Shown here piece after piece: positions 17,772-39,042 of a stretch of DNA of 49,598 nucleotides. Source of the stretch: Bacteroidales bacterium (GTDB taxonomy: Bacteria > Bacteroidota > Bacteroidia > Bacteroidales > ML635J-15); contig JAFGVU010000098.1 in the NCBI GenBank assembly GCA_016937855.1, positions 1 to 49,598 on the forward strand. The letters are read 5' to 3'. Each line of letters begins with the position of its first letter. Within the stretch, counting starts at the first letter, position 1. The position numbers and the translations under genes are program-made. Below the pieces are notes generated by a model. That model had not been told where the DNA came from. It worked only from the letters and a program-made list of their open reading frames with translations, and made no database searches.

Positions 17772-17786
17772 AATTTTAAATTTTAA

Positions 17787-18575: not shown

Positions 18576-18578
18576 GAT

Positions 18579-19664: not shown

Positions 19665-19690
19665 TTTGTCTAAATTTTTATGTGATTAAA

Positions 19691-23057: not shown

Positions 23058-24125
23058 TCAACCTCTTCCTTCTTTCTGCTTAAAGATTTTCTCTAATTCC
23101 TGTTTCGATTTTCCATCAACAAGTATTATTAAATAATCGTCCATAATAATTGTTAAATCATTTTTTGGATTTTTAAAAATCTTGTAATGCCCGTTTTCTT
23201 TTCTGCTTATACCCATTAAGATTGCATTATATTCTTTTTTTAATCCTATAAAGCTATCCATGTAGTTTTGATTTAAATACGGATTATGTTCATTTACTTT
23301 AAATTCAACCAAATCGTGATCGTTTTCATCTTTTGCAGAGGACATTATATCTTCGGTAAAGTAGGCTACATCTGGTTCAAAATTATAACTGGCAACAAGT
23401 TTTGATGCAACTTCCTGATTTGAAATGGAAAATGTTACCCCGGCTGTTTCGAAAGTGTCCTTTAATTCGGCATTATTCAATGATACAATATAATTTAAAT
23501 TAGGGTATATTTTTTTTATGTTTAGAAGTCTTACTAATGTCTCGGAATCGTCATGAAAGTTGATAAATACGCTTGATGAATTTGTGATGTTTAATAACTC
23601 ATAGCTTTCAGTATTTGAATAATCAGAGAAAAGAACAAAAATATCTTTTTCTCCAAATTTATTGTAAATAAGATCAATATCTTCTTTTCTATTTGTAACA
23701 ACTGCGACTTTCTTGCCGCTTTCCAAAATCCACTTTGTTACATTCATTGCAAAAATGTCCCAACCAATTATTACACAGTGATTCTTCATTTTAGTGCCCA
23801 TATATCCTAATTTTTTTGTTTCCATTACTTGTCGTATTTTATTTGTAAATTGGCTAATGAGTGCTCCCATTAATGCAATACTGCCTAAAACTAAAACGCT
23901 TCCAAGTATTTTTCCTAATACTGTAACAGGAACCATGTCGCCATATCCTACAGCTGCGATTGTTACAATCCCATACCAAAGGGCATCGGCAAAACTATTA
24001 ATTGCAGTGTCGGGATTTTGGGATTCAACATTATAAACAGCAAATTGAAATGCCAGAAAAAACACGATTATAATTGTACCCCAAATAACCCAACTTTTAA
24101 ATAATCTTGTTTTGTGGTTTTTCAT
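23058..24125 (-). CDS. Two-helix potassium channel with RCK/TrkA-N domain
   Basis: A 355-residue protein. TM1 is about residues 11-32. The pore carries the K+ selectivity filter AAVGYGD (57-63), and TM2 is about 68-90. A TrkA-N-type Rossmann domain follows (HCVIIGWDIFAMNV, about 112-230), then a TrkA-C-like tail (about 265-350). The filter has Ala where many channels have Thr before VGYG, a change seen in other prokaryotic channels. The architecture is that of MthK-like ligand-gated K+ channels. The minus-strand promoter at 24183-24213 is one of the best matches in the window. Confidence 0.9.
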   Translation of the reverse strand: MKNHKTRLFKSWVIWGTIIIVFFLAFQFAVYNVESQNPDTAINSFADALWYGIVTIAAVGYGDMVPVTVLGKILGSVLVLGSIALMGALISQFTNKIRQVMETKKLGYMGTKMKNHCVIIGWDIFAMNVTKWILESGKKVAVVTNRKEDIDLIYNKFGEKDIFVLFSDYSNTESYELLNITNSSSVFINFHDDSETLVRLLNIKKIYPNLNYIVSLNNAELKDTFETAGVTFSISNQEVASKLVASYNFEPDVAYFTEDIMSSAKDENDHDLVEFKVNEHNPYLNQNYMDSFIGLKKEYNAILMGISRKENGHYKIFKNPKNDLTIIMDDYLIILVDGKSKQELEKIFKQKEGRG

Positions 24126-25118: not shown

Positions 25119-25161
25119 ATAACCTTGTAATTATTTTAAATTTTAAATATTACAAGGTTAT
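25119..25161 (-). terminator. 13-bp inverted repeat acting as terminator of the ATPase gene
   Basis: Perfect 13-bp arms (25119-25131 and 25149-25161) with a 17-base AT-rich loop. The right arm contains the last codons and stop of the minus-strand ATPase gene. On that strand the hairpin is followed by ATTTTTATTG, so it can serve as a terminator for it. Confidence 0.6.
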
Positions 25162-26286
25162 GTCCCAAAAATTGTCTGGTGTTATGCATTTAAATTCTGA
25201 ATTTGGGTACGCTTCTTTGAATGCATTTGGTGCCTTACATTTTTTATGAGAATTCCATTTAAATTCGTATCCGTATAATATTCCATTCCTGTCTTCAACT
25301 AAATCGATCTCTTGCCTGTCGTATGTTCTCCAAAAATAATTGTTAGAGAATATACTATGGTAGTGTTGTTTTTTTAGTCTTTCGATAAAGCAAAAGTTTT
25401 CCCATAACATTCCTGCATCCATTCGTTGATCAATTGGATTAAAATTGTTTATAATGGCATTTCGCACACCGTTGTCATAAAAATAATATCGATGACTTTT
25501 GGAGATTTCTTTCCGTAAATTATTCGAATATGCTCTTACTTTTACAATTATGAATGATTTCTCAAGTAAATCCAGATAGTGCTCAACTGTTTGTTTTGCA
25601 ATGCCCAATGATCTGGAAAGCTCATTTAATGAAACTTCTTTTCCTATCTGAAATGCTATCAGTTGTAAAAGATCACTGAGTTTGTCATGATTTTTAATGT
25701 TTTCCAGTTCCAGAATGTCTTTGAATAGATATGAGTTTCGCAATGTAATTAAGTATCTTTGCTTAGAATTGTAATTTAATGCATTGATGGTTTCTGGATA
25801 TGTCCCGTAAATTAGATAGTTATTTAAATTTAATTGAACAGTCATTCGTCCATAAGTGTCAACTAATTCCGATATTGATACCGGAAACATAGTGTAGGTA
25901 TTACATCTCCCGGTTAAAGGTTCGCCTGTGTCATTTGATAATTTAAACGAAGACGACCCGCTGGCTATAATCTTTAGCTGAGGGTTGTGATCAACTAGTA
26001 GCTTTAAGCCCCAACCGATGTTTGGTATTCTTTGTGCTTCGTCAATAAAAATGCCTGTATAGCCTCGAAAAGAATTTGTTATTTGGATTAAATCTTCGGA
26101 TGATAAAATTTTGCGTACTTGCAAGTCGTCTCCTGTCCCGATAAAAAAATTGCGGAAATTTGCTTGTACATATTTATGTGATATAGATGACTTTCCAACT
26201 CGTCGTGGACCATAAATAAGACAAACTTTGCCGGGGATAACATAGTCATCTAGCTGTTTTTCGATATGTCTGCTAATCCAATCCAT
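25150..26286 (-). CDS. AAA ATPase with DUF4143 domain (second copy)
   Basis: A 378-residue protein with Walker A YGPRRVGKS (K32) and a Walker B-like GIFIDEAQRI. Sensor-like SGSSSF and LTGR motifs follow, and a C-terminal DUF4143 region (about 190-375) ends with RQEIDLVED and YGYEFKW, the nuclease-like strand pattern. Family role is unknown. It lies downstream of the Mbx-like gene set in the same direction but is separated by 189 bp containing operator-like repeats, so it is probably independent. Confidence 0.85.
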   Translation of the reverse strand: MDWISRHIEKQLDDYVIPGKVCLIYGPRRVGKSSISHKYVQANFRNFFIGTGDDLQVRKILSSEDLIQITNSFRGYTGIFIDEAQRIPNIGWGLKLLVDHNPQLKIIASGSSSFKLSNDTGEPLTGRCNTYTMFPVSISELVDTYGRMTVQLNLNNYLIYGTYPETINALNYNSKQRYLITLRNSYLFKDILELENIKNHDKLSDLLQLIAFQIGKEVSLNELSRSLGIAKQTVEHYLDLLEKSFIIVKVRAYSNNLRKEISKSHRYYFYDNGVRNAIINNFNPIDQRMDAGMLWENFCFIERLKKQHYHSIFSNNYFWRTYDRQEIDLVEDRNGILYGYEFKWNSHKKCKAPNAFKEAYPNSEFKCITPDNFWDITL

Positions 26287-26475: not shown

Positions 26476-27465
26476 TTATTTTCCGCTATCCGAAAAATAC
26501 TTCATAAATTGAGCTCGCTGATAAGCTTGAGGATTAGCAATAGTTTCTTTATTTGCAATGCCAATTATATCACTAATGGACTTAAAATTGTTGTCGTTTA
26601 AATGTTTTTCGACCTCCTGAAGCATAATTGTAATATCACCAATTCCGTTTAAATAAAGTGCAGATACAATTTGAACTGCGTTTGCACCTGCCATTAGGTT
26701 TTTAATAATTGATTTGCCATCATGTATGCCTGTTGTAGCAGCAATGTCGCAGTTTAATTTGTTCGCCAGTATTCCGGTCCATCTTAAAACCATTGCATTT
26801 TCTTCGGGCGTGCTGTAAATATAGGCTGATTCAACTTTTTGAGTTCGGATATTGATGTCGGGAGAAAAGAAACGATTAAAAAATACCATTGCGTCTATTC
26901 CGGTCTCTGATAATTTTTTCGCGAAATTTGCAAATCCGGAGAAGTAATAACTCATTTTTATGGCAATTGGAATACTTGATACCGATTTTACCGATTTAAT
27001 GATGTCAAAATATGTCTGTTCTATTTCTTGTCCTGTCTTTTCTGTATCAGAAGGGAGGATAAAGATATTTAATTCCAGTCCGTCTGCGCCTGCATTTTCA
27101 ATTTTTTTTGCAAAATCAATCCATTCTCCGTCAGAATCACAGTTTATGCTTGCAATTATTGGTATGCTTGTGTTTTCTTTGGCGTCTTTAATTAGCTTGA
27201 GATAATTGTTAATTTTATTTTGCTTGGTGTAAAAACCGATGTAATTTTCAACGTCCGAATAAGAATCAAAAATGTTATTCATTCTTTGACTGTCGATATC
27301 CATTAAGATTTGCTCTTCGAAAAGGGATTTGAGAACAACAGCAGCAGCTCCGTGCTTTTCAAGTTTTACAATATTTTCGACATCTTCGCTTAATCCGCAA
27401 GCTCCAACTATTATTGGATTTTTTAGTTTTAATCCCATATAGGACGTTGACAAATCTATACTCAT
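26476..27465 (-). CDS. Dihydroorotate dehydrogenase-like flavoprotein (atypical active site)
   Basis: A 329-residue TIM-barrel protein of the DHO_dh superfamily (MGLKLKNPIIVGACGLS start, IASINCD, GADGLELN, ATTGIHDGKS, GANAVQIVSALY). The usual LNxSCPN active-site loop, which carries the catalytic Cys/Ser, is replaced here by LELNIFILPSD, and the barrel strand normally ending in KLSPN reads IKMSYYF. A role in pyrimidine synthesis is therefore unlikely. It begins 4 bp after the ferredoxin-GltD-like gene. The pairing recalls PreT/PreA, where a GltD-like subunit feeds electrons to a DHOD-like subunit, but this protein lacks PreA's ferredoxin domain. The start at 27465 (MSIDLS) avoids overlap. Confidence 0.8.
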   Translation of the reverse strand: MSIDLSTSYMGLKLKNPIIVGACGLSEDVENIVKLEKHGAAAVVLKSLFEEQILMDIDSQRMNNIFDSYSDVENYIGFYTKQNKINNYLKLIKDAKENTSIPIIASINCDSDGEWIDFAKKIENAGADGLELNIFILPSDTEKTGQEIEQTYFDIIKSVKSVSSIPIAIKMSYYFSGFANFAKKLSETGIDAMVFFNRFFSPDINIRTQKVESAYIYSTPEENAMVLRWTGILANKLNCDIAATTGIHDGKSIIKNLMAGANAVQIVSALYLNGIGDITIMLQEVEKHLNDNNFKSISDIIGIANKETIANPQAYQRAQFMKYFSDSGK

Positions 27466-27469
27466 ATTT

Positions 27470-29263
27470 TTACTTTTTGCTGTTAATATAATTATCAATA
27501 CCAATTGCTGCTTTATGTCCGTTTGCAATACCGTGAATTACATCAGGTCCCTGTATAATATCTCCACCAACAAATAGCCACTCTAAACTTGACTGGAAGT
27601 TATTATCAACGATTATTCTACCACGGTTGTCCATTTTTAGATTTTCTTTAATTTCATCAGTCAGATAAGATAAATCCATTCCCTGACCAATTGATTCTAT
27701 TACCATCTCGGCTTCAAAGAAATCTTTTATGTTCTCATCAAATTTTGGATTAAACCTTCCTTCCTCGTCAAATACTGAAAGGCATTTGATAACATGTAAG
27801 CCAGTTATTTTGTCGTTTTTGATTTCAATTGACTGAGGGCCCCAACCCGGAATAATTTGAGCATTTTCTTCTCTTGCTTCAACAATTTCTTCGCGGTCGG
27901 CAGGCATAATGTCTTCAGATTCAAGTGAGGTAGCGATAACATTTACTTTGCCAAATTTCTGGTTCTGTAAACGAGCCATCGAGCGTGTGATGTCCATTGC
28001 TACATTACCTCCACCAATTACCACCACTTTTTCTGCAACAGGAATTTCGTTCCCTAATGATATTTCTCGTAACAAATCGGTGGCAAAGTGAACATCTTTA
28101 TGTTCGGTTCCCGGTATTCTTGTACTTCGTCCTAAGTGAAGCCCTGTCCCGGTAAATACTGCATCAAAATCTTTGTGAAGTTGATCAAGAGTATTATCTT
28201 TTCCAATTGTTACATTGTATTTTATTTCTACTCCGAGAGATAATATATAGTTAATGTCTTTGTCAATTTGGTCGTAAGGCAGGCGATACTCCGGAATACC
28301 ATAACGCATCATACCACCGGCAAGAGGAAGTTTTTCAAAAATTGTACAAGAATAACCCATCAGAGCTAAATAGTGAGCAGCAGATAATCCTGAAGGTCCG
28401 GAACCGATAATTGCTATTTTTTTACCATTTTGTTCAATTGTATCAGTACCCAGAATTTCTTTAAATCTTTCTGATGGATTTTGATCGGCAATATATCTCT
28501 TTAACCAACGAATTGAAAGAGGATCACCGGTATGTCCAACAGAACAAACTGTTTCACATTTGTGAGTGCAAATTCTGCCGCAAATTTCAGGTAAAGGGTT
28601 AGTGTCATAAAGAATACGAAGACCTTCTTCTAAATCATCGTTTCGAATTGCTCTGATATATTCCGGAATACCCATGTGAGCCGGACAAGTGGCAGTACAT
28701 ATTCCGCATTCAACACAACGATCGGCTTCTTTTAATGCTTGCTCTTTAGAGTATCCCTGAACAATTTCTATAAATGACTTGTCGCGATCTTCTGGATGCA
28801 ATTCTTGCATATCAACTCGATTAGGATCGTAAAGGTTATAATCCGGTTTTTTCCAACCTTTTTCAGAATTGTTCCACGGTTTATCGTCCGCACCCGGTAT
28901 AAATAGAAAATTGTCGGCATCTTCGTCAATCCACTTAAACTCGTTCGACATAGAAAGTGAGTTTGTTGTGCAAATATCTACACATAGAGCGCACCAACAA
29001 CATCTGCCGTAATCAATTTTTGGGCGTAATCCACTATCTCCATCTTTGGTTTCGATTCCTTCAACCGGCACCAAGTCAATTGCAGCATTTTGGCAAATGT
29101 CTTCGCAAGTTCCACAACCTATACATTTATCAATTTCATTTTTATGAAAGCCTCGATATCTGTCTGCACCTTCGCGTTCGAGAGGTTTTTTTACGGTTAG
29201 CGGCTCATTTACTAAATGTTTCCAAGCAGTAAAAGGTGATAATATGTCGTTAATTTTTCCCAT
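27470..29263 (-). CDS. Ferredoxin (NuoI/MbxN-like) fused to GltD/NfnB-like flavoprotein
   Basis: A 597-residue protein. The N-terminal 8Fe ferredoxin has C47/50/53/57 and C88/91/94/98. The GltD-type iron-sulphur domain has C183/186/189/193 and C228/232/236/240. The FAD Rossmann motif is IAIIGSGPSGLSAA (about 284-297), and the NAD(P) motif is GGGNVAMD (417-424). In the operon it takes the place of the NuoI/MbxN ferredoxin subunit and adds an NfnB/GltD module. It would link ferredoxin-level electrons to NAD(P)H, the signature of Mbx-Nfn-type complexes. It sits 50 bp after the NuoD-like gene. The direction of electron flow and cofactor specificity are not determinable here. Confidence 0.85.
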   Translation of the reverse strand: MGKINDILSPFTAWKHLVNEPLTVKKPLEREGADRYRGFHKNEIDKCIGCGTCEDICQNAAIDLVPVEGIETKDGDSGLRPKIDYGRCCWCALCVDICTTNSLSMSNEFKWIDEDADNFLFIPGADDKPWNNSEKGWKKPDYNLYDPNRVDMQELHPEDRDKSFIEIVQGYSKEQALKEADRCVECGICTATCPAHMGIPEYIRAIRNDDLEEGLRILYDTNPLPEICGRICTHKCETVCSVGHTGDPLSIRWLKRYIADQNPSERFKEILGTDTIEQNGKKIAIIGSGPSGLSAAHYLALMGYSCTIFEKLPLAGGMMRYGIPEYRLPYDQIDKDINYILSLGVEIKYNVTIGKDNTLDQLHKDFDAVFTGTGLHLGRSTRIPGTEHKDVHFATDLLREISLGNEIPVAEKVVVIGGGNVAMDITRSMARLQNQKFGKVNVIATSLESEDIMPADREEIVEAREENAQIIPGWGPQSIEIKNDKITGLHVIKCLSVFDEEGRFNPKFDENIKDFFEAEMVIESIGQGMDLSYLTDEIKENLKMDNRGRIIVDNNFQSSLEWLFVGGDIIQGPDVIHGIANGHKAAIGIDNYINSKK

Positions 29264-29313
29264 AGTAAATTTATTAAGTGCCTAAAGTTCAAAGTGAACT
29301 AGAGTGCCTAAAG

Positions 29314-30501
29314 TTATCTTTCAATTTCCGGTGGATATGTGTGCAGCGAAACCATCAGACCTGCAATATCTGCCAAATTACAGTTAATAATCATTTTTTC
29401 TAACAGCGAAACAGCATGTGTATAACTTGGACCTCTTACATTTATTCTTCTTGGATATTCCGATCCGTCAGAAACCATATAATAGCCATATTCTCCACGT
29501 GTACATTCGGCTTTAGAGTATGTTTCTCCTGCGGGAACTTTCCAATGTAAAACGTTTGGTGTTTCTGCACGAATTTCGCCTTTTTGAGGCATTTTTGCCA
29601 TGATTTGACGAATCAGATCAACACTCATAAGCAAATCTCTTCTTCTTACATCGGCTCTGTTGTATATGTCCGAGTGTGTTGCTGTAACAGCTTCGAAATC
29701 TAGTTGAGGATAAACAAGATATGGATTGTCTTTTCTGACATCTAATGGTACTCCTGCTGCTCTTGCATTTGGTCCTGTGATTCCAAATTTGTATATCCAA
29801 TCTTTTTCAATTATACCCATATCCACCGAACGTTTCTTGAAAACCGCATTGTTGAACATTACTCTTTCAACGTCTTTCATCATTTGCTCGATGAACTTGA
29901 GGTTTTCTTCCATTCTTTGTTTGAATCCTGAAGGTAATAAACCTCTTACTCCACCGGGAATAATATACATGTGATATACACGACCTCCGGTAAGTTCTTC
30001 AAATCTGTCAAGCATTGAATCTCGAAGGTAGTTTGTCCATTGTCCGATTATCCCTTGTCCAAATGCTCCGGCTTGTCCGCCAATCCACATTAAGTAGCTT
30101 GCTAAACGTGCCATTTCGAGAACCAATGTTCTAAGCCATTTTGCCGATTCGGGTATTTCGATTCCTGCAAGCTCTTCCATCGCGGATGCAAAGCAATACT
30201 CGTTAAAATCGGGTTCAGGAACAGCCACACGACAGACGATTGGGAAACATTGGATATATTTTCTTCGTTCCATTAATTTCTCGAATCCTCTGTGAAGATA
30301 ACCAACATGTGTTTCGCAGTCCATTACCTCGTCTCCAAGAAGAGTAATTTCTAGCGACATGTTTCCAGTAATACCCGGGTGCTGAGGTCCGTGCCACAGT
30401 TTTAGGTATTTATGCGAGCTTAAATCGATATCAATTTTTCCTTGTTCATTCTTTTCCGGGAATAAACTTCTGTCTTCTTTAATGTTAAATAGTTTACTCA
30501 T
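29314..30501 (-). CDS. NuoD/MbxL-like large subunit without [NiFe] ligands
   Basis: A 395-residue homologue of complex I 49-kDa (NuoD) and [NiFe]-hydrogenase large subunits. Conserved family segments are HGPQHPG (37-43), HVGYLHRGFEKLMERRKY and FGITGPNARAAG. Neither hydrogenase cysteine pair is present: the N-terminal site reads QCFPIVCR (C85, C90, spacing four), and the C-terminus ends HTYPPEIER with no DPCxxC. The MDY segment that carries the quinone tyrosine in complex I is also missing, replaced by VAVPEPD. This points to the Mbx (MBS)-type, neither hydrogen- nor quinone-reactive. It overlaps the NuoC-like gene by 8 bp. Confidence 0.88.
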   Translation of the reverse strand: MSKLFNIKEDRSLFPEKNEQGKIDIDLSSHKYLKLWHGPQHPGITGNMSLEITLLGDEVMDCETHVGYLHRGFEKLMERRKYIQCFPIVCRVAVPEPDFNEYCFASAMEELAGIEIPESAKWLRTLVLEMARLASYLMWIGGQAGAFGQGIIGQWTNYLRDSMLDRFEELTGGRVYHMYIIPGGVRGLLPSGFKQRMEENLKFIEQMMKDVERVMFNNAVFKKRSVDMGIIEKDWIYKFGITGPNARAAGVPLDVRKDNPYLVYPQLDFEAVTATHSDIYNRADVRRRDLLMSVDLIRQIMAKMPQKGEIRAETPNVLHWKVPAGETYSKAECTRGEYGYYMVSDGSEYPRRINVRGPSYTHAVSLLEKMIINCNLADIAGLMVSLHTYPPEIER

Positions 30502-31021
30502 CTGGATATAATTTTTGTTTCATGTACTCTGCCGGAACATTTTTAGTTCTGCCTTCGCGAGGGAAATATGTTTCTTCGGAATAATTTTTTGTGTCAAAAT
30601 CACGTCTGTATGGTGGAATCTCGTGCCAGCCTTCTAAAATAAATGGTTTGTCAACACCCGGACTACCGGGAAAATCGATTCCAAACATCTCTTTAAGCTC
30701 TCGTTGATATGTAGCCGCTTGTTCCCACAAATGATGTATCGAGAACATTTCGGCATTTTCTCTATCTATCATTACTCTAACCACAAAACTGTTTTTTGTT
30801 GTAGGATTATTAATTAGATAGGATAGCTGAAATTTGTTTTTTTCTAACCAATCAACTGCGGTAATAATGGATAAGTGTAAAAAACCTTCTTCATTTTTTA
30901 GCCTAGTGATGAAGTCAACAGCTTTATCTTTATCAACTGTGATTAAAGCCAAACTCTTATTCTGCTGCTTAAAATCACCTATTGGATATAATTCTTGTAA
31001 TCTGTCAATAATTTCTTTCAT
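30494..31021 (-). CDS. NuoC/MbxK-like 30-kDa subunit
   Basis: A 175-residue protein of the complex I 30-kDa family. It has HLSIITAVDW, the helix EQAATYQRELKEMFGIDF and the family signature GWHEIPPYRRDFD near residue 130. It is a structural partner of the NuoD-like subunit in the peripheral arm. It lies 11 bp after the NuoB-like gene and overlaps the NuoD-like gene by 8 bp. The length fits separate NuoC/MbxK subunits and not the fused NuoCD forms. Confidence 0.88.
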   Translation of the reverse strand: MKEIIDRLQELYPIGDFKQQNKSLALITVDKDKAVDFITRLKNEEGFLHLSIITAVDWLEKNKFQLSYLINNPTTKNSFVVRVMIDRENAEMFSIHHLWEQAATYQRELKEMFGIDFPGSPGVDKPFILEGWHEIPPYRRDFDTKNYSEETYFPREGRTKNVPAEYMKQKLYPDE

Positions 31022-31032
31022 TTGCTCAGATT

Positions 31033-31677
31033 TTACCAGTTATAATCGGGCATATCCCAATCTTTAATAATTTTTTTCTGATTTGCTTTGTACCATGCAA
31101 ATTCTTCGGCATATTTATTATAGCCTTCGCCTCTGCCTTCACGAATGATTTTCTTTAATTGATCAAATCCTGCCAAGAGAGCTTCGGGACGTGGCATACA
31201 GCCGGCAACATAAACATCTACCGGGAGATAGTAGTCTAATCTGTTTATTGTATTATAACTATCCCAGTACATACCTCCGTTGATAGTGCAACTTCCCAAT
31301 GCCATAACATATTTAGGACCTTGCATTTGCTCGTATGTTCGGATAACTCTTTTCAGAGTTTTTACTGATAGGTACCCGGACACAACAAATACATCGGCTT
31401 GTCGTGGAGTAGGTCGCCATTGAATTCCGTAGCGGTATGCATCAAATTTTGGTGTCATCAGTGGACGCATTTCTATTGCACCGCAACCTGTCCCAAAACC
31501 TAAAACCCATAAAGATCTACTACGCGCCCAATTTCTGAAGTTTTCTAGAATAGCAATTGAGGAGGCTTTGTGAACTTCGGGCAAATCTTCACAAAAATAA
31601 TCCTGCAATGGATTTACTTCAATCGGATCTCCCTCGGGAGAATATACAATTCTTTTTTCTGTATGCTCTTTACTCAT
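31033..31677 (-). CDS. NuoB/MbxJ-like small subunit with altered cluster ligands
   Basis: A 214-residue homologue of complex I subunit NuoB and hydrogenase small subunits. It binds the terminal [4Fe-4S] cluster next to the NuoD-like subunit. Two ligand sites are normal (GSCTINGG and GCMPRPEAL). At the first site, where complex I has a Cys-Cys pair before AIEM and hydrogenases have CxxC, the sequence is GTGCGAIEM with a single Cys. One cluster ligand may be substituted. It follows the NuoH-like gene by 11 bp. The overall assignment is firm; the cluster geometry is uncertain. Confidence 0.88.
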   Translation of the reverse strand: MSKEHTEKRIVYSPEGDPIEVNPLQDYFCEDLPEVHKASSIAILENFRNWARSRSLWVLGFGTGCGAIEMRPLMTPKFDAYRYGIQWRPTPRQADVFVVSGYLSVKTLKRVIRTYEQMQGPKYVMALGSCTINGGMYWDSYNTINRLDYYLPVDVYVAGCMPRPEALLAGFDQLKKIIREGRGEGYNKYAEEFAWYKANQKKIIKDWDMPDYNW

Positions 31678-31688
31678 ATTATTATCTC

Positions 31689-32603
31689 TTAAAAGAATTT
31701 AGAAACTACTACTGCTGCTACACCAATTATAAGAGGTACTCCCAAATACCATCTTACCGATTGATCAACTCTGAATCTTGGGAATGCAACTCCGACAAAA
31801 ACCGACCACATATATATAAAGAAAGTCTTTATTATGAGTTCGCCCCAATTGGTTGCACCACCAAATAGTAAATTCATAAATAATATCAATTTCGCTATCG
31901 GGAATATTGCACGATTTAGTTGTAATACTCCAAGAAATCCTGAATGAAACTCTGTTGGAGGTCCAATTGGAATTTCTTGTGGTGCTAAAACAACATCAAA
32001 AGGACTACGCCCCATTGCTGCTAAAAATGCAAGAAGTAAAGCTATGCTGGCAAGTGGATTTGTAAAAAACGACCAGTTTAGTATTCCTCCTTGTTGTGCA
32101 GCAACTATTTCTGATACGTTTAAGGTATTATACTGTACAGCTAATGACAGTACCCCTAAAGTTAAGGGGAGCTCGTATGCTGTTACTTGGCTTAATCCTC
32201 TTGATACTCCAATTGCTGAATTTGGGTGCCCACTTTCTGCAGCTCCTAGTGCCATACCTAAGACTCCAAAAAATTGGAAATATAGGATTAGTAGCAAATC
32301 ACCGCTAAAGGAAAAGTTTTGAAACATATTATTCCCAAAAATTACTGGAATAAACAATAACAATCCAATACCTCCTGTTAGCCTAAATACCGGTGCAATG
32401 TAATACATTATACCATGACTTATACGTGTGCGTTTTGAATAATTCTTAATGATGTCTATGTAAGGTTGATAGAAAGGAATACCGTATCTTCGACCTACTC
32501 GTGCACCAATTTTCCTGACGATTCCTTGCACTATTAGTCCATAGTTTAAAACTATAAATATTGTGAGAAGTGCAAATAATATCTGTTTAATTAATGGGTC
32601 CAT
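31689..32603 (-). CDS. NuoH/MbxM-like membrane subunit
   Basis: A 304-residue polytopic protein of the NuoH/HyfC family with about eight membrane helices. GLIVQGIVRKIGARVGRRYG near the N-terminus and the conserved loops ESGHPNSAIGVSRGLSQV and PQEIPIGPPTEFHSGF are visible. In complex I-like enzymes this subunit connects the redox arm to the ion-pumping arm. The start codon overlaps the stop of the double MrpD gene by one base. It is located where mbxM lies in archaeal operons, between the antiporter genes and the NuoB-like gene. Confidence 0.9.
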   Translation of the reverse strand: MDPLIKQILFALLTIFIVLNYGLIVQGIVRKIGARVGRRYGIPFYQPYIDIIKNYSKRTRISHGIMYYIAPVFRLTGGIGLLLFIPVIFGNNMFQNFSFSGDLLLILYFQFFGVLGMALGAAESGHPNSAIGVSRGLSQVTAYELPLTLGVLSLAVQYNTLNVSEIVAAQQGGILNWSFFTNPLASIALLLAFLAAMGRSPFDVVLAPQEIPIGPPTEFHSGFLGVLQLNRAIFPIAKLILFMNLLFGGATNWGELIIKTFFIYMWSVFVGVAFPRFRVDQSVRWYLGVPLIIGVAAVVVSKFF

Positions 32604-35600
32604 TAAAATCCTCCAAATGATATTAAGTAAATAACTAAAATGAATGCCACTATATGTATTAGGTAAGACTGAGCATTACCATTGTAGATTTTGGTGAATT
32701 TGTCAGATACTGAATGTGCTCCTTCGTCAACTCTATGCCAGAAGTTTGTAATTCCAGGAGCAACTAAAAAACCTATAGCTTTTTTATATGGAGCAAAAAA
32801 GTTAAATGCATAATGTGTTGTTTCTGGTAGGAAAGGTCTTTCTGCTGCATAACCGATGTTAAATTGCTTAACTTTTTTGGCATTACGATTCATAAACACC
32901 AACCATCCAAAAACTATTGCAAAAACTCCGACAACAATAAACATTACAGTTTTACCATTCCAGTATCCAAGAGCAGTTGTTGCCATTTGTCCATCCCATG
33001 TTATTGCTCCATCAGGGAAATATGGCATAAGCATATCTCCAATAGGTTTTAAAAGTGAATTTGGTAACATCGAGAATAACATGATAACCATTAAAATTGC
33101 ATATTGTGGAACTAAAATCCAGAAAGGAGCTTCTTTAACATTTCTATGTTCATCTTTTGGTTGGCCAAGGAAAATGCTGTGAATTAGTCTAAAGCAATAT
33201 AAGAAAGCAATTATTCCAGAAAAGAATAGAACTGCACCTTGTAAAAACCATTGTTTTTCTACTACTGCCTGAAAAAACAACCATTTGCCGGCAAAACCTG
33301 TTAATGGAGGAACGCCTGCCAAAACAATAATTCCAATTAAAACCGATATGAAAGAAAATGGCATTTTCTTGATTAACCCGCCCATTTTGTACATGTCTTT
33401 TGTCTTTAATCTCCAGACAACACCCCCAATTGCTAAGAAAAGTAGCGCTTTAAACATAAAGTGAGTTACTGAGAACGAAATTGCCGTTAACCAACCAAGG
33501 TGTGACATTAATGAAAGCCCAAAGAGAACATATCCCAAAGCACCAATACTTGAGTATGCAAGTAGTCGTTTTGCATCTTCTTGAAAAGCAGCCATCATAT
33601 TTCCCATTAAAGCTGTAATAACACCAACCCAGCTAAGAATATATGCAAAACTGATATTACCAATAAATTGTTCTCCCATTGCAAGGAATAGCATTATCAA
33701 ACCAAATACTCCGGCTTTTAATAATATTGCGGACACCATTGGAGACACATCGGCTTCTGCTTCGGCATGAGCACCGGGCAACCAAATATGAAGACCGATT
33801 GATGCTGTCTTTGTCATAAACCCGATTGCTAATAATCCAAATATCCATGGGGCATATAACTCTATGTTCGATAAAATGCCAATCGAAATATCCGGTTTGC
33901 CAATGGCCGCAAGACCAAATCCTGCAAGAATCAGATAAGCACCACCAATTGAGAATAAAATGTAACTTAATGCGTGTTTAATCGATTTTTTGCCCCTGAG
34001 AATCAGAAAGTAAGAACCAATAGTCATTAGTTCCCAGGCAAAAAAGAATTCTAAAGTAGTTGTAGCTTCAACTAAACCAATTAGTCCGGCAAACATCATT
34101 AACGCAAACGGATAAAAACCCTGACGCTTGCCCTTATATGCATAACCAGCTATTAGTGTCAATATACCACCAATAATAAAGATGGCAGCAAAGATGACTT
34201 GAAGCTCGTTGTAGGATTCGTAGTTGAAGTAAAAGTAAGCTGCCATTGCTGCAATTGCAAGTGTATTCTTGATAAATACGGGTAGAAATTCGATAAATGC
34301 AAATCCTAATGCTACAGCCAAAGGTAGATAATTGATTAAACTTGCATAAGGATGCTCGCTACTTACGTAATAACCTGCACCAAAGGCTGCTGCTGCAAAT
34401 AATAATAATGGTATGATTTGATGAATTTTTGCTTTCAGTTTTGTTTCAATTATAATATCATTCTTTACTGCATATCCCAGCCATCTAAACATGTAAACAA
34501 CCTCAAAAAATGATCCTATCAAAACGGCAAATATCCATATAAAGTTTTTTGTTTCTGCCAGATGCATAACTAATTCCCATTTGCCAAAGAATCCCGGAAA
34601 CGGAGGAAGGCCGGTTAAAGCAAAAATAAAAACTCCGAAAAGCACAAGCAACAACTTGTTGCTTCTTAATACTGACCAATTTTTGATGGACTCTTGTTTG
34701 ACAATTCCTGCAATCCAGAATAATCCTGATTTTGCTAGGAAATGACTTATTAGTATTGAAATAACAATAAAATATGTGTATTCTCCAATTACAGAAGAAA
34801 TACCGATAACTGCTGCCAATAAACCAATTTGAGAAATAGACGAATAGCCTAACATCCTGTTTGGATTATCTTGACGCATTCCCATTAAATTTGAGAATAC
34901 AAAAGTAATAATACCGATTGCAGCAATTAAAAATTGTAAATTCTCAGGGGCAAAAGGCAATAATTTCATTAAAACAAAAACTGTAGCTGTTGCATAAGCA
35001 GAAGATAGGAGTGAACTAACTCCACTCTCGGCTGATGAGTAAACATCTAATCCCCAACCATTTGCCGGAAAAGGTTTCATCTCAAGTACAATTGCAATCA
35101 TTAAAAAGAAAATCGCTATCGAAAGACCTTTTGCTGCTTCTAGATTTTGGGTTAAAATATGATCGATGTTTAGTGATCCTGCATAGTTGTAAATAAATGC
35201 AATTCCTAATAAAAGCAATCCGGAGATAATCCCTGTTGCTATCATAAACTTAAACCCTGCCGATATACTTTTTGTATTTTGTGTTAAGACTATTAAACCT
35301 GCAACAGCAATACTGCTTATCTCGAGGAAAACAAAGAGGTTAAACAAATCGCGCGTCATTACTACTACGTTTAATCCCATTATAAGCATTAGTAAAGCAA
35401 TAAATGAATTTTTACCTGCAGCTTTTAGTCGGTCAAACATATATAATCCACCAAATAAGCCAATAGCATTTATCATCATAGTGAAAAGAGCTTCTTCTTT
35501 ACCCATCATAAGGTTAATAGAGAAAGGTGGCTTAAATGCTGTTGTAAATATGTGGTAAGTTTCGATATCAGCAGTAACGAAATTATAAAACCATTGTGCA

Positions 35601-35731
35601 GAAACCAGAGTAGTAAAACCGAGCGCTAAAAGACTCAGAATTCCGGCGATATTTTCTGACTTTTTCCCAATAAAACCGAGTGAGAATGAAATTCCCAACA
35701 ATACGGCTACAATATAAATCGGATCTACCAT
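32603..35731 (-). CDS. Fused double MrpD/NuoN-type antiporter subunit
   Basis: An unusually long (1042-residue) membrane protein made of two tandem proton/Na+ antiporter domains (each about 450-500 residues, ordinarily separate proteins). The second copy (about 545-900) is canonical: FFFAWELMTIG with the TM5 Glu, IWLPGAHAEAEADVSPMVSA and the LLKAG lysine. The first copy (about 1-440) keeps the TM5 Glu (FLEISSIAV). However, its WLPxAH loop is altered to WGLDVYSSAESG, and the TM8-type Lys position reads SSAYAT. Archaeal Mbx operons carry two separate genes of this type (mbxH and mbxH'), so this looks like their fusion. Starts 7 bp inside the MrpC-like gene. Confidence 0.88.
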   Translation of the reverse strand: MVDPIYIVAVLLGISFSLGFIGKKSENIAGILSLLALGFTTLVSAQWFYNFVTADIETYHIFTTAFKPPFSINLMMGKEEALFTMMINAIGLFGGLYMFDRLKAAGKNSFIALLMLIMGLNVVVMTRDLFNLFVFLEISSIAVAGLIVLTQNTKSISAGFKFMIATGIISGLLLLGIAFIYNYAGSLNIDHILTQNLEAAKGLSIAIFFLMIAIVLEMKPFPANGWGLDVYSSAESGVSSLLSSAYATATVFVLMKLLPFAPENLQFLIAAIGIITFVFSNLMGMRQDNPNRMLGYSSISQIGLLAAVIGISSVIGEYTYFIVISILISHFLAKSGLFWIAGIVKQESIKNWSVLRSNKLLLVLFGVFIFALTGLPPFPGFFGKWELVMHLAETKNFIWIFAVLIGSFFEVVYMFRWLGYAVKNDIIIETKLKAKIHQIIPLLLFAAAAFGAGYYVSSEHPYASLINYLPLAVALGFAFIEFLPVFIKNTLAIAAMAAYFYFNYESYNELQVIFAAIFIIGGILTLIAGYAYKGKRQGFYPFALMMFAGLIGLVEATTTLEFFFAWELMTIGSYFLILRGKKSIKHALSYILFSIGGAYLILAGFGLAAIGKPDISIGILSNIELYAPWIFGLLAIGFMTKTASIGLHIWLPGAHAEAEADVSPMVSAILLKAGVFGLIMLFLAMGEQFIGNISFAYILSWVGVITALMGNMMAAFQEDAKRLLAYSSIGALGYVLFGLSLMSHLGWLTAISFSVTHFMFKALLFLAIGGVVWRLKTKDMYKMGGLIKKMPFSFISVLIGIIVLAGVPPLTGFAGKWLFFQAVVEKQWFLQGAVLFFSGIIAFLYCFRLIHSIFLGQPKDEHRNVKEAPFWILVPQYAILMVIMLFSMLPNSLLKPIGDMLMPYFPDGAITWDGQMATTALGYWNGKTVMFIVVGVFAIVFGWLVFMNRNAKKVKQFNIGYAAERPFLPETTHYAFNFFAPYKKAIGFLVAPGITNFWHRVDEGAHSVSDKFTKIYNGNAQSYLIHIVAFILVIYLISFGGF

Positions 35732-36096
35732 TTTGTGTCTTTATAATCGTTAATAAGTAATGATTTTTTTTCTTTGTGCATTTTTAAGGCATAAACCAAT
35801 AGTAATGCAGTAACTCCCAAACCAATAACAATTGACGTAAGTACAAGTGCTTGTGGTATAGGGTCAACTATCTTTTCTGCAGTGTTAGTCTGTAGTTCTG
35901 TGGTGTCAAGAATAGGAGCAGTTTTATTTCTAATGTATCCAATAACTACCAGAATTACATTTAATCCTGTCTCAAATATTGTAAATGATACAATGATTTT
36001 GAGGATGTTTTTTTGGGAAAGCATACCCCAAATTCCTATTAAAAGCAGGATAAATCCAACTGCAAGACTGATTTGTTCAATTCCAATGTTTTGCAT
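35725..36096 (-). CDS. MrpC/NuoK-like subunit
   Basis: A 123-residue protein with three predicted membrane helices, of the MrpC/NuoK family (GFILLLIGIWGMLSQKN, FTIFETGLNVILV, IPQALVLTSIVIGLGVTALL). The conserved Glu of NuoK-type helices is present in FETGLN. The start overlaps the stop of the MrpB-like gene by one base. It overlaps the double MrpD gene by 7 bp. Corresponds to mbxG/mbhG in the archaeal arrangement. Confidence 0.88.
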   Translation of the reverse strand: MQNIGIEQISLAVGFILLLIGIWGMLSQKNILKIIVSFTIFETGLNVILVVIGYIRNKTAPILDTTELQTNTAEKIVDPIPQALVLTSIVIGLGVTALLLVYALKMHKEKKSLLINDYKDTKW

Positions 36097-36797
36097 TATT
36101 CTTCGTTTTGAATTTCTTTTAAATTTCCAATAATTCCAGTTAGTTCGGTTCCAACTTTAAGTCCTATAAGTATGTATATAACAGGTACGGCTCCTGCACT
36201 AAGTATTGTCCCAAAAGTACCGAGACTCATAATTTGATTGTCAAGGAATCCTGCTGCCAGAAAAACTCCAAGTAAGCCAATAATAACATAACTTAAACCG
36301 GAAAATGATTCGATAATTGACAATACTCTGTGATTAAGAGCCGGACGTGGCAATGCAATAAGCATCAAAACAAATGCTGAGGCAATTATTGCTCCTCCCT
36401 GAAATCCTCCACCCGGAGTTAGATGCCCGTTAATAAAAACATAAGCTCCCAGCAAAATAATAATAGGGACTAGTATTTTTGCACCTGTTCCGAGTATCTC
36501 GCTGTAACGAATTACTATTTGATTTTTACTGTGTTCCTCGTTTCTGATTTTTAGGAAAAAACCAATTATGGCTGCAGAAAGAAAAAGTATCGAGACTTCT
36601 CCAAGGGTATCTAAACCCCTGTAAGTAACAACAACCGCTGTTACAAGATTGGCTGCACCAACTTCTTCTTTGCCATTATTTGCATAATGCTCTGCAACTG
36701 GTCCAAGTTTCTCTTTTGGAGTATAATCCACAAAAATGCTCAGCATTATTGCAGCTAATCCAAGTATTAAAATTAGTATAAGACTATTCCTCAACAT
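36096..36797 (-). CDS. MrpB-like subunit
   Basis: A 233-residue membrane protein combining an N-terminal helix segment (EVGAANLVTAVVVTYRGLDT-type motif, including the conserved RGLDTLGE) with the MnhB domain (about 100-225: GHLTPGGGFQGGAI, FLDNQIMSLGTFGTIL). Mrp antiporters have it as MrpB, and Mbh/Mbx complexes split it as subunits E and F; here both parts are one protein. It overlaps the preceding small gene by 14 bp. Confidence 0.88.
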   Translation of the reverse strand: MLRNSLILILILGLAAIMLSIFVDYTPKEKLGPVAEHYANNGKEEVGAANLVTAVVVTYRGLDTLGEVSILFLSAAIIGFFLKIRNEEHSKNQIVIRYSEILGTGAKILVPIIILLGAYVFINGHLTPGGGFQGGAIIASAFVLMLIALPRPALNHRVLSIIESFSGLSYVIIGLLGVFLAAGFLDNQIMSLGTFGTILSAGAVPVIYILIGLKVGTELTGIIGNLKEIQNEE

Positions 36798-37038
36798 GTT
36801 TGTGTTTTTTTATTTTATTAAGAACATAAAAGAAAATAAAAGTTGTCAAACCACTTCCGATTGCTGCTTCGGTTAATGCAACATCAGGTGCTGCTAAAAG
36901 CAAATACAAAATAGAAGCAATAAGACTTACACCACCGGCAGAAAGTATCGCAATGGTTATCTTTTTATGATGTATGGCAACAACTGACATTGTTATCATA
37001 ACTACACCAAGAACTGCCGAAATTATTATCCATATCAT
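36784..37038 (-). CDS. MbhD/DUF4040-like small membrane subunit
   Basis: An 84-residue protein with three hydrophobic segments. The motif APDVALTEAAIGSGLTTFIF is the hallmark of the DUF4040/MbhD piece, equivalent to the C-terminal part of MrpA. Its presence as a free subunit, with no full-length MrpA in the operon, is the Mbh/Mbx arrangement. It lies 4 bp after the MrpG-like gene. Confidence 0.85.
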   Translation of the reverse strand: MIWIIISAVLGVVMITMSVVAIHHKKITIAILSAGGVSLIASILYLLLAAPDVALTEAAIGSGLTTFIFFYVLNKIKKHKHVEE

Positions 37039-37042
37039 AAGC

Positions 37043-37402
37043 TTATTCTTTGCTGTTGTTTATATCATCTTTTTCTTCCACTCCATCATCGGCAAGTTGG
37101 TCGATAATGGTTTTGTCGGAAAGTTTTATTTTGCGAAAATGTGCTGCTCGTGCTAAAACATGAGAGGAAATCGGATTTGTAATCAATACAAATAATATTA
37201 ATATCACCAATTTTCCTGTCCAATCAGGATTTAATAAGATGATTCCCAATAGTGTTAGCATTGTTCCAAGAGTTGAAGCCTTTGTGCCTGCCTGTATTCT
37301 GTTAAATAGGTCGGGCATTCTTACTAATCCTAAGGCTCCAAGAAATAAAAATATGGATCCTAATAGCACTATTATCGCACCTATAAGTTTTAATGTTTCC
37401 AT
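37043..37402 (-). CDS. MrpG-like subunit
   Basis: A 119-residue protein with three membrane helices and the MrpG/MnhG signature GLVRMPDLFNRIQAGTKAST followed by SHVLARAA. The C-terminal 25 residues are strongly acidic and cytoplasmic. It immediately follows the MrpF-like gene with no spacing. Equivalent to mbxC/mbhC. Confidence 0.9.
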   Translation of the reverse strand: METLKLIGAIIVLLGSIFLFLGALGLVRMPDLFNRIQAGTKASTLGTMLTLLGIILLNPDWTGKLVILILFVLITNPISSHVLARAAHFRKIKLSDKTIIDQLADDGVEEKDDINNSKE

Positions 37403-37663
37403 TTATAACGATTTTTCCTTGTATTTTGAAATAATTATTACTCCCAAAAAGCTTAACAGCCCATAAACTATAGCAACGTCAATGTAAATCATGCGTTCGG
37501 TTAAATACGTGATTATCCCGATTAAACCAATCATTGAAATTGTCATCGTGTCAAATGACGCAATCCTATCAAATGTTGTAGGGCCTTTTAAAAACCTATA
37601 CATAGATAACAATACTGCTAAAAGTATTATTATTGCCGAAATATTTAATAACTGATCAACCAT
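37403..37663 (-). CDS. MrpF-like subunit
   Basis: An 86-residue protein with three membrane helices and the MrpF motif RFLKGPTTFDRIASFDTMTI. It overlaps the MrpE-like gene by 8 bp. Equivalent to mbxB/mbhB. Confidence 0.9.
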   Translation of the reverse strand: MVDQLLNISAIIILLAVLLSMYRFLKGPTTFDRIASFDTMTISMIGLIGIITYLTERMIYIDVAIVYGLLSFLGVIIISKYKEKSL

Positions 37664-38150
37664 ATATCTCTTTTAAATATTTTTCAAATTTTTTAACTAT
37701 CGAATTCGTAGCCGTCTCAATATCTTTACCCTCTACATTGATCCAATGAACATATATATACTCATCTCGTATATCAACACTCAGTGTGCCGGGTGTTAAG
37801 GTTATCGAGTTAGCCAATATCATCCGACCAAGCTCCGTGTTTAAAACTGTTTTTACTTTAACAATGCCCGGATTTATTGGTAACTTTGGACTAATTACAC
37901 GTATCGCAACATCTAAGTTCGATTTAATCAACTCAATCATAAATACAAAAAGATAAGCAATCGAATAAAATAGTGATTTAGGACTTAATTTTATCTGACT
38001 AAATACTGAACACTTGGTGCAAAATATTAGAGCTATCAAAATCGAAACTGCTGCACCTATAATTAATAATACAGGCTCATAGGAATTGTTTAATAATACC
38101 CAAACGGAAAACAAAACAATGGTAATTATAAAAAACGATTTAATTTTCAT
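37656..38150 (-). CDS. MrpE-like subunit (first gene of the complex)
   Basis: A 164-residue protein with two N-terminal hydrophobic helices and the MrpE region (FVFMIELIKSNLDVA, then LANSITLTPGTLSVDI). It is the first gene of the set running from 38150 down to 26476. The promoter region is shared with the divergently read FNR-like regulator gene (196-bp gap). A -7 box lies at 38189-38196 on the minus strand. Equivalent to mbxA/mbhA. Confidence 0.9.
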   Translation of the reverse strand: MKIKSFFIITIVLFSVWVLLNNSYEPVLLIIGAAVSILIALIFCTKCSVFSQIKLSPKSLFYSIAYLFVFMIELIKSNLDVAIRVISPKLPINPGIVKVKTVLNTELGRMILANSITLTPGTLSVDIRDEYIYVHWINVEGKDIETATNSIVKKFEKYLKEIYG

Positions 38151-38188
38151 TGAAGTAAATTTTAAATCTTGTTATTAATTTAACAATG

Positions 38189-38196
38189 CAAAAATA
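38189..38196 (-). promoter_or_regulatory. -7 promoter box of the Mbx-like operon
   Basis: On the minus strand the sequence reads TATTTTTG, matching TAnnTTTG, 38 bp before the ATG of the MrpE-like gene. No TTG is found 20 bp further upstream, so an activator may be needed. Confidence 0.45.
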
Positions 38197-38278
38197 CAGA
38201 AATCATGCTTAATTATCCGTAAAGATAAGCAAAACAATGATTTAGATTATAAAGAACATTGATTTAATTTTAAAAATC

Positions 38279-38332
38279 TTTGTTTTATTTGAAAAATAGA
38301 TATACTTTTATTTTTTTATTAACATAAGTTAA
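38279..38332 (+). promoter_or_regulatory. Promoter and palindromic operator of the FNR-like gene
   Basis: A -33 TTTG (38279-38282) and a near-consensus -7 TACTTTTA (38303-38310) are spaced 20 bp apart. Directly downstream lies a perfect dyad TTAAC-ATAA-GTTAA (38319-38332), the size and 4-base spacing of CRP/FNR-family sites. It would sit at the expected transcription start, 14 bp before the ATG, fitting negative autoregulation. Confidence 0.55.
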
Positions 38333-38346
38333 TGTAAATAGTAACT

Positions 38347-39042
38347 ATGGATAGCGATTTTAATAACAAAAACTGTGTTGAATGCAATGAAAAGTCGTTG
38401 TGTTTTAATAAGTTGACAGAAGAAGAATTGTTGGCAATAGATAAAGATAAGGTTGTCCTAAAATACAAAAAAGGTGAAATTATTGCCAAGCAAGGCGCGT
38501 ATATCCCTCAAATTTTGTTCCTTCAAAAAGGGCTTGTTAAAGTTTATAAAGAAGTAAACGATAACGAGAATTTAGTGCTTACAATTTTCCCAAGTGGTAG
38601 TTTAATTGGGTTGCCATCGTTGTACAGCGTATCGAAAATGGAATACACAGTTTCTGCTTTGATTGAATCTGTTATTTGTGCTATGGATAAACAATTGTTT
38701 GAAAAGTTTATTAAGCAAAATGGCGAATTTGCAGCTTCTGTAATCAGTAATATGAATAATTGCTTGTTATATAATTTTGATAAAATTATTTCGCTTACTC
38801 ATAAGCAAATGAACGGACGACTTGCAGAGGCAATTCTGTTTTTGTCTGATGTAATATATAAATCAGACGAATTTGAAATGGTTTTGTCAAGAAAAGACCT
38901 GGCAGAGTTTACCGGAATGTCTGTGATGAGCGTTGTTAGAGGAATTAAGGACTTTAAAGAAAGTATGATTATTTCTGATGAACATGGAACTATCAAGATA
39001 CTAAATCGTGAAAAATTAATGAAAATTTCTGTAACTGGATAA
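38347..39042 (+). CDS. CRP/FNR-family regulator with all four FNR-type cluster cysteines
   Basis: A 231-residue regulator with an N-terminal cysteine motif, a cNMP-like beta-barrel (about 25-125) and a C-terminal winged helix (about 150-225, recognition around TGMSVMSVVRGI). The cysteines C10-x2-C13-x5-C19 have exactly the spacing of E. coli FNR C20, C23 and C29. C111 (ALIESVICAM) aligns with FNR C122 (92 versus 93 residues after the third Cys). It therefore probably binds an oxygen-labile [4Fe-4S] cluster. It is divergent from the Mbx-like operon, a probable target. Its target box cannot be proven from this window. Confidence 0.88.
   Translation: MDSDFNNKNCVECNEKSLCFNKLTEEELLAIDKDKVVLKYKKGEIIAKQGAYIPQILFLQKGLVKVYKEVNDNENLVLTIFPSGSLIGLPSLYSVSKMEYTVSALIESVICAMDKQLFEKFIKQNGEFAASVISNMNNCLLYNFDKIISLTHKQMNGRLAEAILFLSDVIYKSDEFEMVLSRKDLAEFTGMSVMSVVRGIKDFKESMIISDEHGTIKILNREKLMKISVTG

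Follow-up and report, generated by a model that had tools for sequence, protein, structure and literature searches.

A Bacteroidales operon for an MBS-type membrane complex with a fused flavoprotein: a candidate NADH:sulfane-sulfur oxidoreductase

What reaction is carried out by a bacterial membrane complex that combines Mrp antiporter subunits, complex I-like subunits and a flavoprotein? The question is raised by a contig of a Bacteroidales bacterium (JAFGVU010000098.1, assembly GCA_016937855.1), analysed over 49,598 nucleotides (the window). Here, 13 open reading frames (ORFs) on the minus strand (26476-38150) overlap or lie at most 50 bases apart. Pfam and NCBIfam identify their products as MnhE, MrpF, MrpG, MbhD, MbhE+MnhB, MnhC, a double Proton_antipo_M protein, NuoH, NuoB, NuoC, NuoD, NuoI joined to GltD/NfnL, and a dihydroorotate dehydrogenase (DHOD)-like protein. 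In the lettering of the archaeal complex MBS (formerly MBX), the first 12 are A, B, C, D, E, G, H-H', M, J, K, L and N-GltD; the MBS/MBX subunit order A-B-C-D-E-G-H-H'-M-J-K-L-N is thus complete and collinear in the window, with H-H' and N-GltD fused. The complex is a variant of the known MBS/MBX kind, of a widespread bacterial subtype. We propose that it may be an NAD-linked bacterial form of MBS, an oxidoreductase that passes electrons reversibly between NADH and sulfane sulfur and couples this to ion movement, and hold this proposal to be about evenly balanced between right and wrong.

For the comparison with MBS, we used the subunit table of PMC8415708 and the mbx gene order of PMC3608648; papers are given by their PMC numbers. 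An earlier note on this DNA had described 13 packed genes with Mrp and NuoH/B/C/D-like products, an order and content like the archaeal Mbx operon, and a ferredoxin-GltD/NfnB flavoprotein, with a parallel in Thermotoga. The ORFs, their families and the full mbx order bear out this description, with one correction: the flavoprotein, of the NF010590 family, is a single polypeptide made of a NuoI-like ferredoxin part and an NfnL/GltD domain. In line with the parallel, a T. maritima protein scores above the curated cut-off of this fusion family.

The J/L core of the complex

The earlier note had suggested a phylogeny of the NuoD-like subunit (L) as a check, and the tree sets it with MBS and apart from complex I and [NiFe] hydrogenases. 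Among 70 rows, the window L, P. furiosus MBS and bacterial MBX form one group (35 rows, support 100/100), and complex I, NuoCD, MBH and HycE fall outside it; the program flagged long branches in this tree. By sequence, the best PDB match of L is 6u8y_L (318 bits, versus 208 for the best complex I chain and 143 for MBH). Its predicted fold (mean pLDDT 75.8) also matches 6u8y_L first, narrowly ahead of complex I chains (E 2e-27 vs 8e-27). Subunit J matches 6u8y_J with 217 bits, the best complex I-type chain reaching 134.

We compared the residues of this core with those of related loci, taking the best 80 of 165 large-subunit relatives from one scan of genome contigs. Residue counts use rows of suitable length only, giving 68 J, 78 L, 61 fusion and 51 fused-pump sequences from these 80 loci. 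The criteria used for an MBS-type site are a proximal cluster held by three cysteines and an L subunit without the quinone residues and MBH E21, with no more than two of the NiFe cysteines (PMC7684303). In the window J, C65, C130 and C160 correspond to MbsJ C28, C93 and C123, a pattern found in 68 of 68 aligned relatives; the position of MbsJ C25 is Gly in the window and Gly or Ala in the aligned relatives. We infer that three cysteines ligate the proximal cluster of J. In L, Thr45 stands where complex I has H38 and MBH has E21 (Thr in 90/90 rows), and position 88, that of the quinone Tyr (Nqo4 Y87), is Ile in the window and Tyr in no row. None of the four NiFe-ligating cysteines is present, with A93/E96 and Y389 in their place. 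As the quinone and NiFe residues are lost and the three-Cys cluster is kept, the site pattern of the polysulfide-reducing MBS is conserved, and the core is, as judged from the tree and its active-site residues, of the MBS type.

Two other identities were considered and rejected. A canonical complex I would have the quinone His and Tyr, both absent here, and the window L lies outside the complex I clade; a group 4 [NiFe] hydrogenase (MBH, Hyc) would have two CxxC pairs for NiFe, which are missing, and sits elsewhere in the tree.

The fused flavoprotein and the fused pump

The NuoI-GltD fusion matches NF010590 over its full length with 888 bits, slightly under the curated cut-off of 946. By sequence, its residues 6-109 match MbsN, and the stretch 149-594 or 149-596 matches NfnL; the N subunit is thus not of the plain ferredoxin type found in MBS, but is fused to an NfnL/GltD domain. 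NfnL structures are the top matches of the predicted fold, which speaks for the NfnL part only because residues 1-144 are mostly of low confidence in the model. Seventeen cysteines, including those of the NuoI part, are invariant in 62 of 62 sequences, and by motif their number and spacing are as expected for four [4Fe-4S] clusters.

An NfnL fold would also suit a different reaction, in which ferredoxin is reduced at the NuoI clusters, driven by NADH oxidation, the ion gradient and the sulfur couple of the J/L chamber, with confurcation- or bifurcation-like chemistry at the NfnL-type flavin, for instance in CO2 fixation. The putative Mrp-Mbx of the Riftia symbiont Endoriftia, which may or may not be of this subtype, shares co-expression neighbours with the reductive tricarboxylic acid cycle (PMC11636981). 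Pfam and NCBIfam reveal no NfnS-like partner among the 13 operon products, however, and we consider this reaction quite improbable.

At the NADP-binding YRR site of the fusion, the window has SLE, and 60 of 61 aligned loci have A/S/C-L/M-E. YRR is absent from all 61 aligned relatives of the window's subtype (W-type) and from 11 of 11 further genomes of the order, and present in 12 of 12 proteins of a second subtype (P-type), namely the paralogue in the window's own genome and 11 others. In the related flavoprotein DsrL, the sole YRR enzyme assayed used NADP(H) exclusively; of two without YRR, one had a strong preference for NAD(H), and the other showed no activity with NADP(H) (PMC7596348). 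By analogy with DsrL, we infer that the window fusion uses NAD(H); the P-type paralogue is predicted to use NADPH.

This paralogue belongs to a second full MBX locus in the same genome (4.44 Mb, 95.4% complete), on another contig (C88:12836-24111; L091:4836-16111). Its fusion is 44% and its L 49% identical to the window proteins. The P-type locus has unfused pumps and keeps the pump lysine K250, YRR and the MBS-like L cysteines 85 and 385; the pumps are also unfused at three other P-type loci.

The W-type pump differs in being fused and in its central lysine. The two halves of the fused protein have MbsH (6u8y_H) and MbsH' (6u8y_X), respectively, as their best PDB matches. In the N-half, T248 replaces the central lysine of MbsH, K250, and all 51 aligned relatives (51/51) likewise have T, A, S or G at this position; the C-half keeps E567, K641, K672 and K816. 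With K250 lost, the window lacks the two intact proton-pump subunits of MBS. The central histidines (H330/H336) do not align cleanly, and no interpretation is drawn from them. We estimate, using standard potentials, that NADH instead of ferredoxin as donor would leave roughly 10 kJ/mol, and because this NADH-to-sulfane gap is small, one working pump half fits the NADH subtype. The energy per two electrons is given as 41 kJ/mol for MBS with two pumps and 12 kJ/mol for MBH with one (PMC7684303).

Relatives, dsrA and the proposed reaction

The hosts of the best 80 loci include Bacteroidota, Marinimicrobiota, Spirochaetota, Cloacimonadota, records titled Deltaproteobacteria and many Pseudomonadota. 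All 12 core genes are found at 48 of these loci, with identical order and strand in 48 of 48, and therefore the gene cluster in the window is not a chance arrangement. Fused-pump ORFs are 1035-1179 aa long across the complete loci. The remaining 32 loci lack at least one core gene in the sequence stretch covered, many of them on short contigs. In even draws of genomes and with both subtypes pooled, the NuoI-GltD fusion family turns up in 2 of 296 for the phylum and in 21 of 149 for the order, with the window's own genome counted in each, and in 6 of 398 for Pseudomonadota, where a single match is partial.

We looked for dsrA in the genomes of 50 of the 80 loci, taking the phylum from the record titles. 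It is present in 28 of these hosts, which are 28 of the 28 titled Pseudomonadota; 27 score above the model cut-off. Three dsrA-negative hosts (L018, L023 and L028) are titled only 'bacterium', and if they were Pseudomonadota the count would be 28/31. The background is 53 of 398 genomes in the even draw of Pseudomonadota. All five genomes of this draw with a full-length fusion carry dsrA: two were already among the 28, and three are new, of which G498 and G518 are confirmed W-type and G502 is assigned by score only. A further dsrA-bearing genome, G782, was excluded from the fusion-positive count, as its fusion-family match covers only residues 127-602 in a 656-aa frame. Fisher tests of dsrA against the fusion give 3.5e-5 with all five genomes and 0.002 with the three new ones; these values overstate the evidence because the hosts share descent and are not independent. 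By title, the dsrA-bearing hosts are Alpha-, Beta- and Gammaproteobacteria and Magnetococcales. We take the dsrA of Pseudomonadota to be of the reverse, sulfur-oxidising type.

This link bears on a reaction that the earlier note had favoured, an exchange of electrons between ferredoxin and NAD(P) coupled to ion transport. In such an Rnf-like ferredoxin:NAD(P)+ oxidoreductase, electrons would pass from ferredoxin through the NuoI clusters and the GltD flavin to NAD(P)+, with the Mrp arm pumping. MbsN accepts ferredoxin electrons in MBS (PMC7684303), and the same role was once proposed for P. furiosus Mbx (restated in PMC6349859) and has been proposed for Thermoanaerobacter mbx, where mbx and rnf alternate between clades (PMC3608648); the conservation of the NuoI-part cysteines in all 62 sequences also fits. 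However, the electron path would bypass the J/L chamber although its MBS-type cluster is kept in 68 of 68 relatives. Since coupling in this superfamily is thought to start at that chamber, such an exchange would be disfavoured. It would also leave the dsrA link in Pseudomonadota unexplained.

Nor does the complex look like a substitute for Rnf, as the note had suggested. A complete rnfBCDGEA operon (RnfC identified by model, the other genes by reading ORFs) lies in the same genome, on contig C90 (L092:3945-9030) and not in the window operon. Across the 149 genomes of the order, rnfC occurs in 18 of 21 with the fusion (either subtype) and 108 of 128 without it (Fisher p = 1.0), hence with no anticorrelation. 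A neighbouring 2-oxoacid:ferredoxin oxidoreductase had been named as a source of reduced ferredoxin, and by eye, four minus-strand genes at 17229-19918 do resemble a KorDABC-type operon. They lie 6.6 kb from the MBX operon, and 0 of 80 loci had KorA, KorB or KorC within the stretches covered (up to 10 kb beyond the match), so we see no evidence for this role and reject a functional link. Taken together, we regard ferredoxin:NAD(P)+ exchange as unlikely.

The note had also asked whether rnf and nuo occur elsewhere in the genome. Rnf does, as above, and canonical complex I was not found: the only two PF00346 (49-kDa) proteins are both MBX-type. Five NuoF-like genes are present and, having no 49-kDa partner, suggest soluble NADH-linked enzymes such as hydrogenases rather than complex I. 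One NuoF-like frame (G000:C53:105489-106664) contains a single internal TAA, from a frameshift, a pseudogene or an assembly error.

An NADH:sulfane-sulfur oxidoreductase could work as follows. NAD(H) would be handled at the FAD of the NfnL/GltD domain, as its motifs suggest, and electrons would travel to or from the J/L chamber by way of five predicted [4Fe-4S] clusters, of which GltD and the NuoI part have two each and J has one. There, the three-Cys proximal cluster would react with sulfane sulfur, be it polysulfide, persulfide or a related disulfide, an acceptor to which the MBS residue pattern points. Turnover would drive a membrane arm in which the MbsH'-like half of the fused pump would be competent to move H+, next to the half that has lost its central lysine and to an Mrp-type Na+/H+ module. 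The Mrp-type subunits hint at the coupling ion, which is Na+ in P. furiosus (PMC8415708). The complex would be reversible: in an anaerobic fermenter, as the window host probably is, NADH would be oxidised by sulfur compounds with little energy conserved, and in Dsr-type sulfur oxidisers the reverse direction would be more likely, with the ion gradient spent on forming NADH with electrons from the level of sulfide.

Several observations weigh against this reaction. Electron transfer from NADH to polysulfide offers little driving force. Among the 61 aligned fusions, that of L079 has TRK in place of YRR, and the active-site loops of the L model (residues 40-46, 67-95 and 389-395) have pLDDT below 50. 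J position 29, in an N-terminal extension beyond the region alignable to P. furiosus MbsJ, is Cys in 60 of 69 rows and might provide a fourth cluster ligand or a redox thiol. No sulfur-metabolism gene recurs beside the cassette among those neighbour clusters that were annotated. Furthermore, dsrA occurs in none of the 22 tested hosts not titled Pseudomonadota, and the window's order has 0 of 21 among its genomes with the fusion, the window's own included (E 1e-30); this last search can be trusted because the same model detects dsrA in the other sets, with no control genome scored within the order. As dsrA is absent from the window's own genome and its Bacteroidota relatives, the sulfur link seen in Pseudomonadota does not reach Bacteroidota, and a sulfur role there is argued from the active-site pattern only.

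The L pocket is a further such point. The MBS cysteines 85 and 385 are Ala and Tyr in the window L, which has two cysteines not found in MBS L, C103 and C333. C103, C333 and Tyr389 occur together in 80 of 90 rows; nine rows keep Cys at the position of MBS C385, all without C103 and C333, and one has Tyr389 with C333 only. Because the three residues co-occur, the pocket has changed as a set, and it may have shifted to another substrate, such as an organic disulfide, a small molecule at C103/C333, or a quinone that binds although its usual residues are missing. We think such a shift rather improbable, as the three-Cys cluster and the other MBS features are unchanged. Nine rows from genomes of the order form one clade and are most likely the nine exceptions; the swap could thus have happened only once.

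A bolder possibility goes further along the same lines. The W-type complex would be a 'sulfur complex I', a distinct NADH-specific respiratory complex whose one working pump half is matched to the small NADH/sulfane gap. It would run in reverse in Dsr-type Proteobacteria, drawing NADH from sulfide-level electrons without the quinone pool, and forward in Bacteroidota, Marinimicrobiota and Spirochaetota as NADH-dependent sulfur respiration. We put this forward only tentatively.

Sulfur oxidisers are usually held to obtain their NADH for CO2 fixation by sending electrons backwards through quinones and complex I. A complex linking NADH directly to sulfane sulfur, if true, would be a cheaper route to NADH, and the Pseudomonadota hosts tested carry dsrA in 31 of 31 cases. 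The W-type subtype also appears to have one of its pumps inactivated, offering a natural test of pump number against redox energy in complex I-like enzymes; the effect of inactivating one pump is a question asked in the MBS paper (PMC7684303). Both the sulfur and the single-pump predictions can be tested directly.

Genes around the cassette and comparison with known systems

Table 1. Operon genes and the adjacent regulator, listed in the order of transcription of the operon, with the evidence for each assignment.
Feature	Position	Strand	Basis
MrpE / MbsA-like membrane subunit, 164 aa	37656..38150	-	PF01899 1.7e-41
MrpF / MbsB-like, 86 aa	37403..37663	-	PF04066
MrpG / MbsC-like, 119 aa	37043..37402	-	PF03334
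MbhD / MbsD-like, 84 aa	36784..37038	-	PF13244
MbhE+MnhB fusion, MbsE-like, 233 aa	36096..36797	-	PF20501 + PF04039
MrpC / MbsG (NuoK-like), 123 aa	35725..36096	-	PF00420
Fused double pump, 1042 aa, N-half MbsH, C-half MbsH'	32603..35731	-	6u8y_H + 6u8y_X matches, residue counts
MbsM / NuoH-like membrane anchor, 304 aa	31689..32603	-	PF00146
MbsJ / NuoB-like, 214 aa	31033..31677	-	best PDB match 6u8y_J
MbsK / NuoC-like, 175 aa	30494..31021	-	PF00329
MbsL / NuoD-like large subunit, 395 aa	29314..30501	-	6u8y_L best by sequence and predicted fold; alignment
MbsN/NuoI-like 2x[4Fe-4S] fused to NfnL/GltD FAD-NAD(P) domain, 597 aa	27470..29263	-	NF010590; 6u8y_N + NfnL matches
DHOD-like flavoprotein (PRK07565 family)	26476..27465	-	NF005741 408 bits, above cut-off
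FNR-like Crp-family regulator, divergent from operon	38347..39042	+	PF00027, PF13545

Recurrent neighbours of the cassette are a rubrerythrin-like gene, the DHOD-like gene, and CBS and sensor proteins. The DHOD-like gene is present at 6 of 8 Bacteroidota loci and at 0 of 72 other loci, and its product is a Bacteroidota accessory of the cassette; it also lies upstream of one P-type locus (L159). In the window it is probably the final gene of the operon, and probably starts at the ATG at 27465 rather than the TTG at 27528. Its protein seems to lack the active-site Cys segment of the PyrD type. Placed beside a GltD-type flavoprotein, it resembles one half of the PreT/PreA pair of dihydropyrimidine dehydrogenase.

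The rubrerythrin-like gene was matched at 51 of the 80 loci (e.g. L077:13079-13582), 48 times at the end of the fusion gene and three times before the cassette; identity is only 25-30% for eight of these 51. It was not found at the six Bacteroidota loci with more than 700 bases downstream. Perhaps it has a role in protection against oxygen or peroxide.

The divergent regulator has cysteines in a CxxCx5C arrangement plus an internal one (C10, C13, C19 and C111), which we take to be the pattern of the oxygen sensor FNR. At 5 of 8 Bacteroidota loci the cassette has a homologue of this regulator next to it, and the N-terminal CxxCx5C is kept in four of these five. Anaerobic expression of the operon is a fair guess from these residues. 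The gap between regulator and operon (38151-38346) contains a palindrome, TTGTTA-N6-TAACAA, for which no repeat was found at five relatives.

Other features of the window lie further from the operon. On either side of the MBX region is an ion-channel gene (23058-24125 and 39588-41489) whose product has regulatory domains of the TrkA or Castor/Pollux type. Two large ATPases look similar (14156-15433 and 25150-26286), the latter being AAA_14+DUF4143 by domain match and the former assigned by eye only. Also by eye, an overlapping pair of helix-turn-helix nucleotidyltransferase (MNT) and HEPN genes at 444-1377 is likely a toxin-antitoxin system.

In the open literature, to which our search was confined (subscription titles fell outside its scope), we found no description, in the text available, of a pair of NADH and NADPH MBX subtypes, a lost pump lysine or a dsrA link. 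Among the matches listed, a single paper has both Mbx and reverse Dsr, the one describing the putative Mrp-Mbx of Endoriftia (PMC11636981). A cluster found in more than 300 bacteria and judged not to act in sulfur reduction (PMC4053972) was considered as the same complex and set apart by its description, which in the available text gives six Hyf-like genes and names no Mrp.

Several known systems resemble the window complex in part. Rnf exchanges electrons with NAD while moving ions; it is built from a different protein set, and its genes lie on another contig. DsrL, the NAD(P)H:acceptor partner of reverse DsrAB, belongs to the NfnL/GltD family, shows the same split between YRR with NADP and no YRR with NAD, and its Dsr pathway co-occurs with the W-type in Pseudomonadota. 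It differs in being soluble and in having its extra ferredoxin domain at the C-terminus, whereas that of the window protein is N-terminal and NuoI-like, and the protein is part of a membrane complex.

Closer parallels are the bacterial complexes. The deep-branching bacterium 3DAC has a 13-gene MBS, most of whose genes rise with elemental sulfur (PMC10356935), and Thermoanaerobacter has an mbx cluster of 13 genes with rnf as an alternative (PMC3608648). Compared by description only, neither is said to have a NuoI-GltD fusion or fused pump in the text available. T. maritima has a member of the NuoI-GltD fusion family, which may belong to its MBX unit. Its MBX has 13 subunits, a number that suggests unfused pumps; it exists alongside Rnf, and the mbxA transcript rises with sulfur (PMC9431562).

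The P-type complex of the same genome shares with the W-type the subunit plan and the fusion family, and differs in having unfused pumps and in keeping K250, YRR and L cysteines 85 and 385. P. furiosus MBS (6u8y) matches the window in its subunits, their order, the three-Cys cluster and the lost quinone and NiFe residues, and provides the best PDB matches for L, J, H and H'. Relative to MBS, the window has N fused to NfnL/GltD, H fused to H', an H half without K250, and Ala and Tyr in place of L cysteines 85 and 385.

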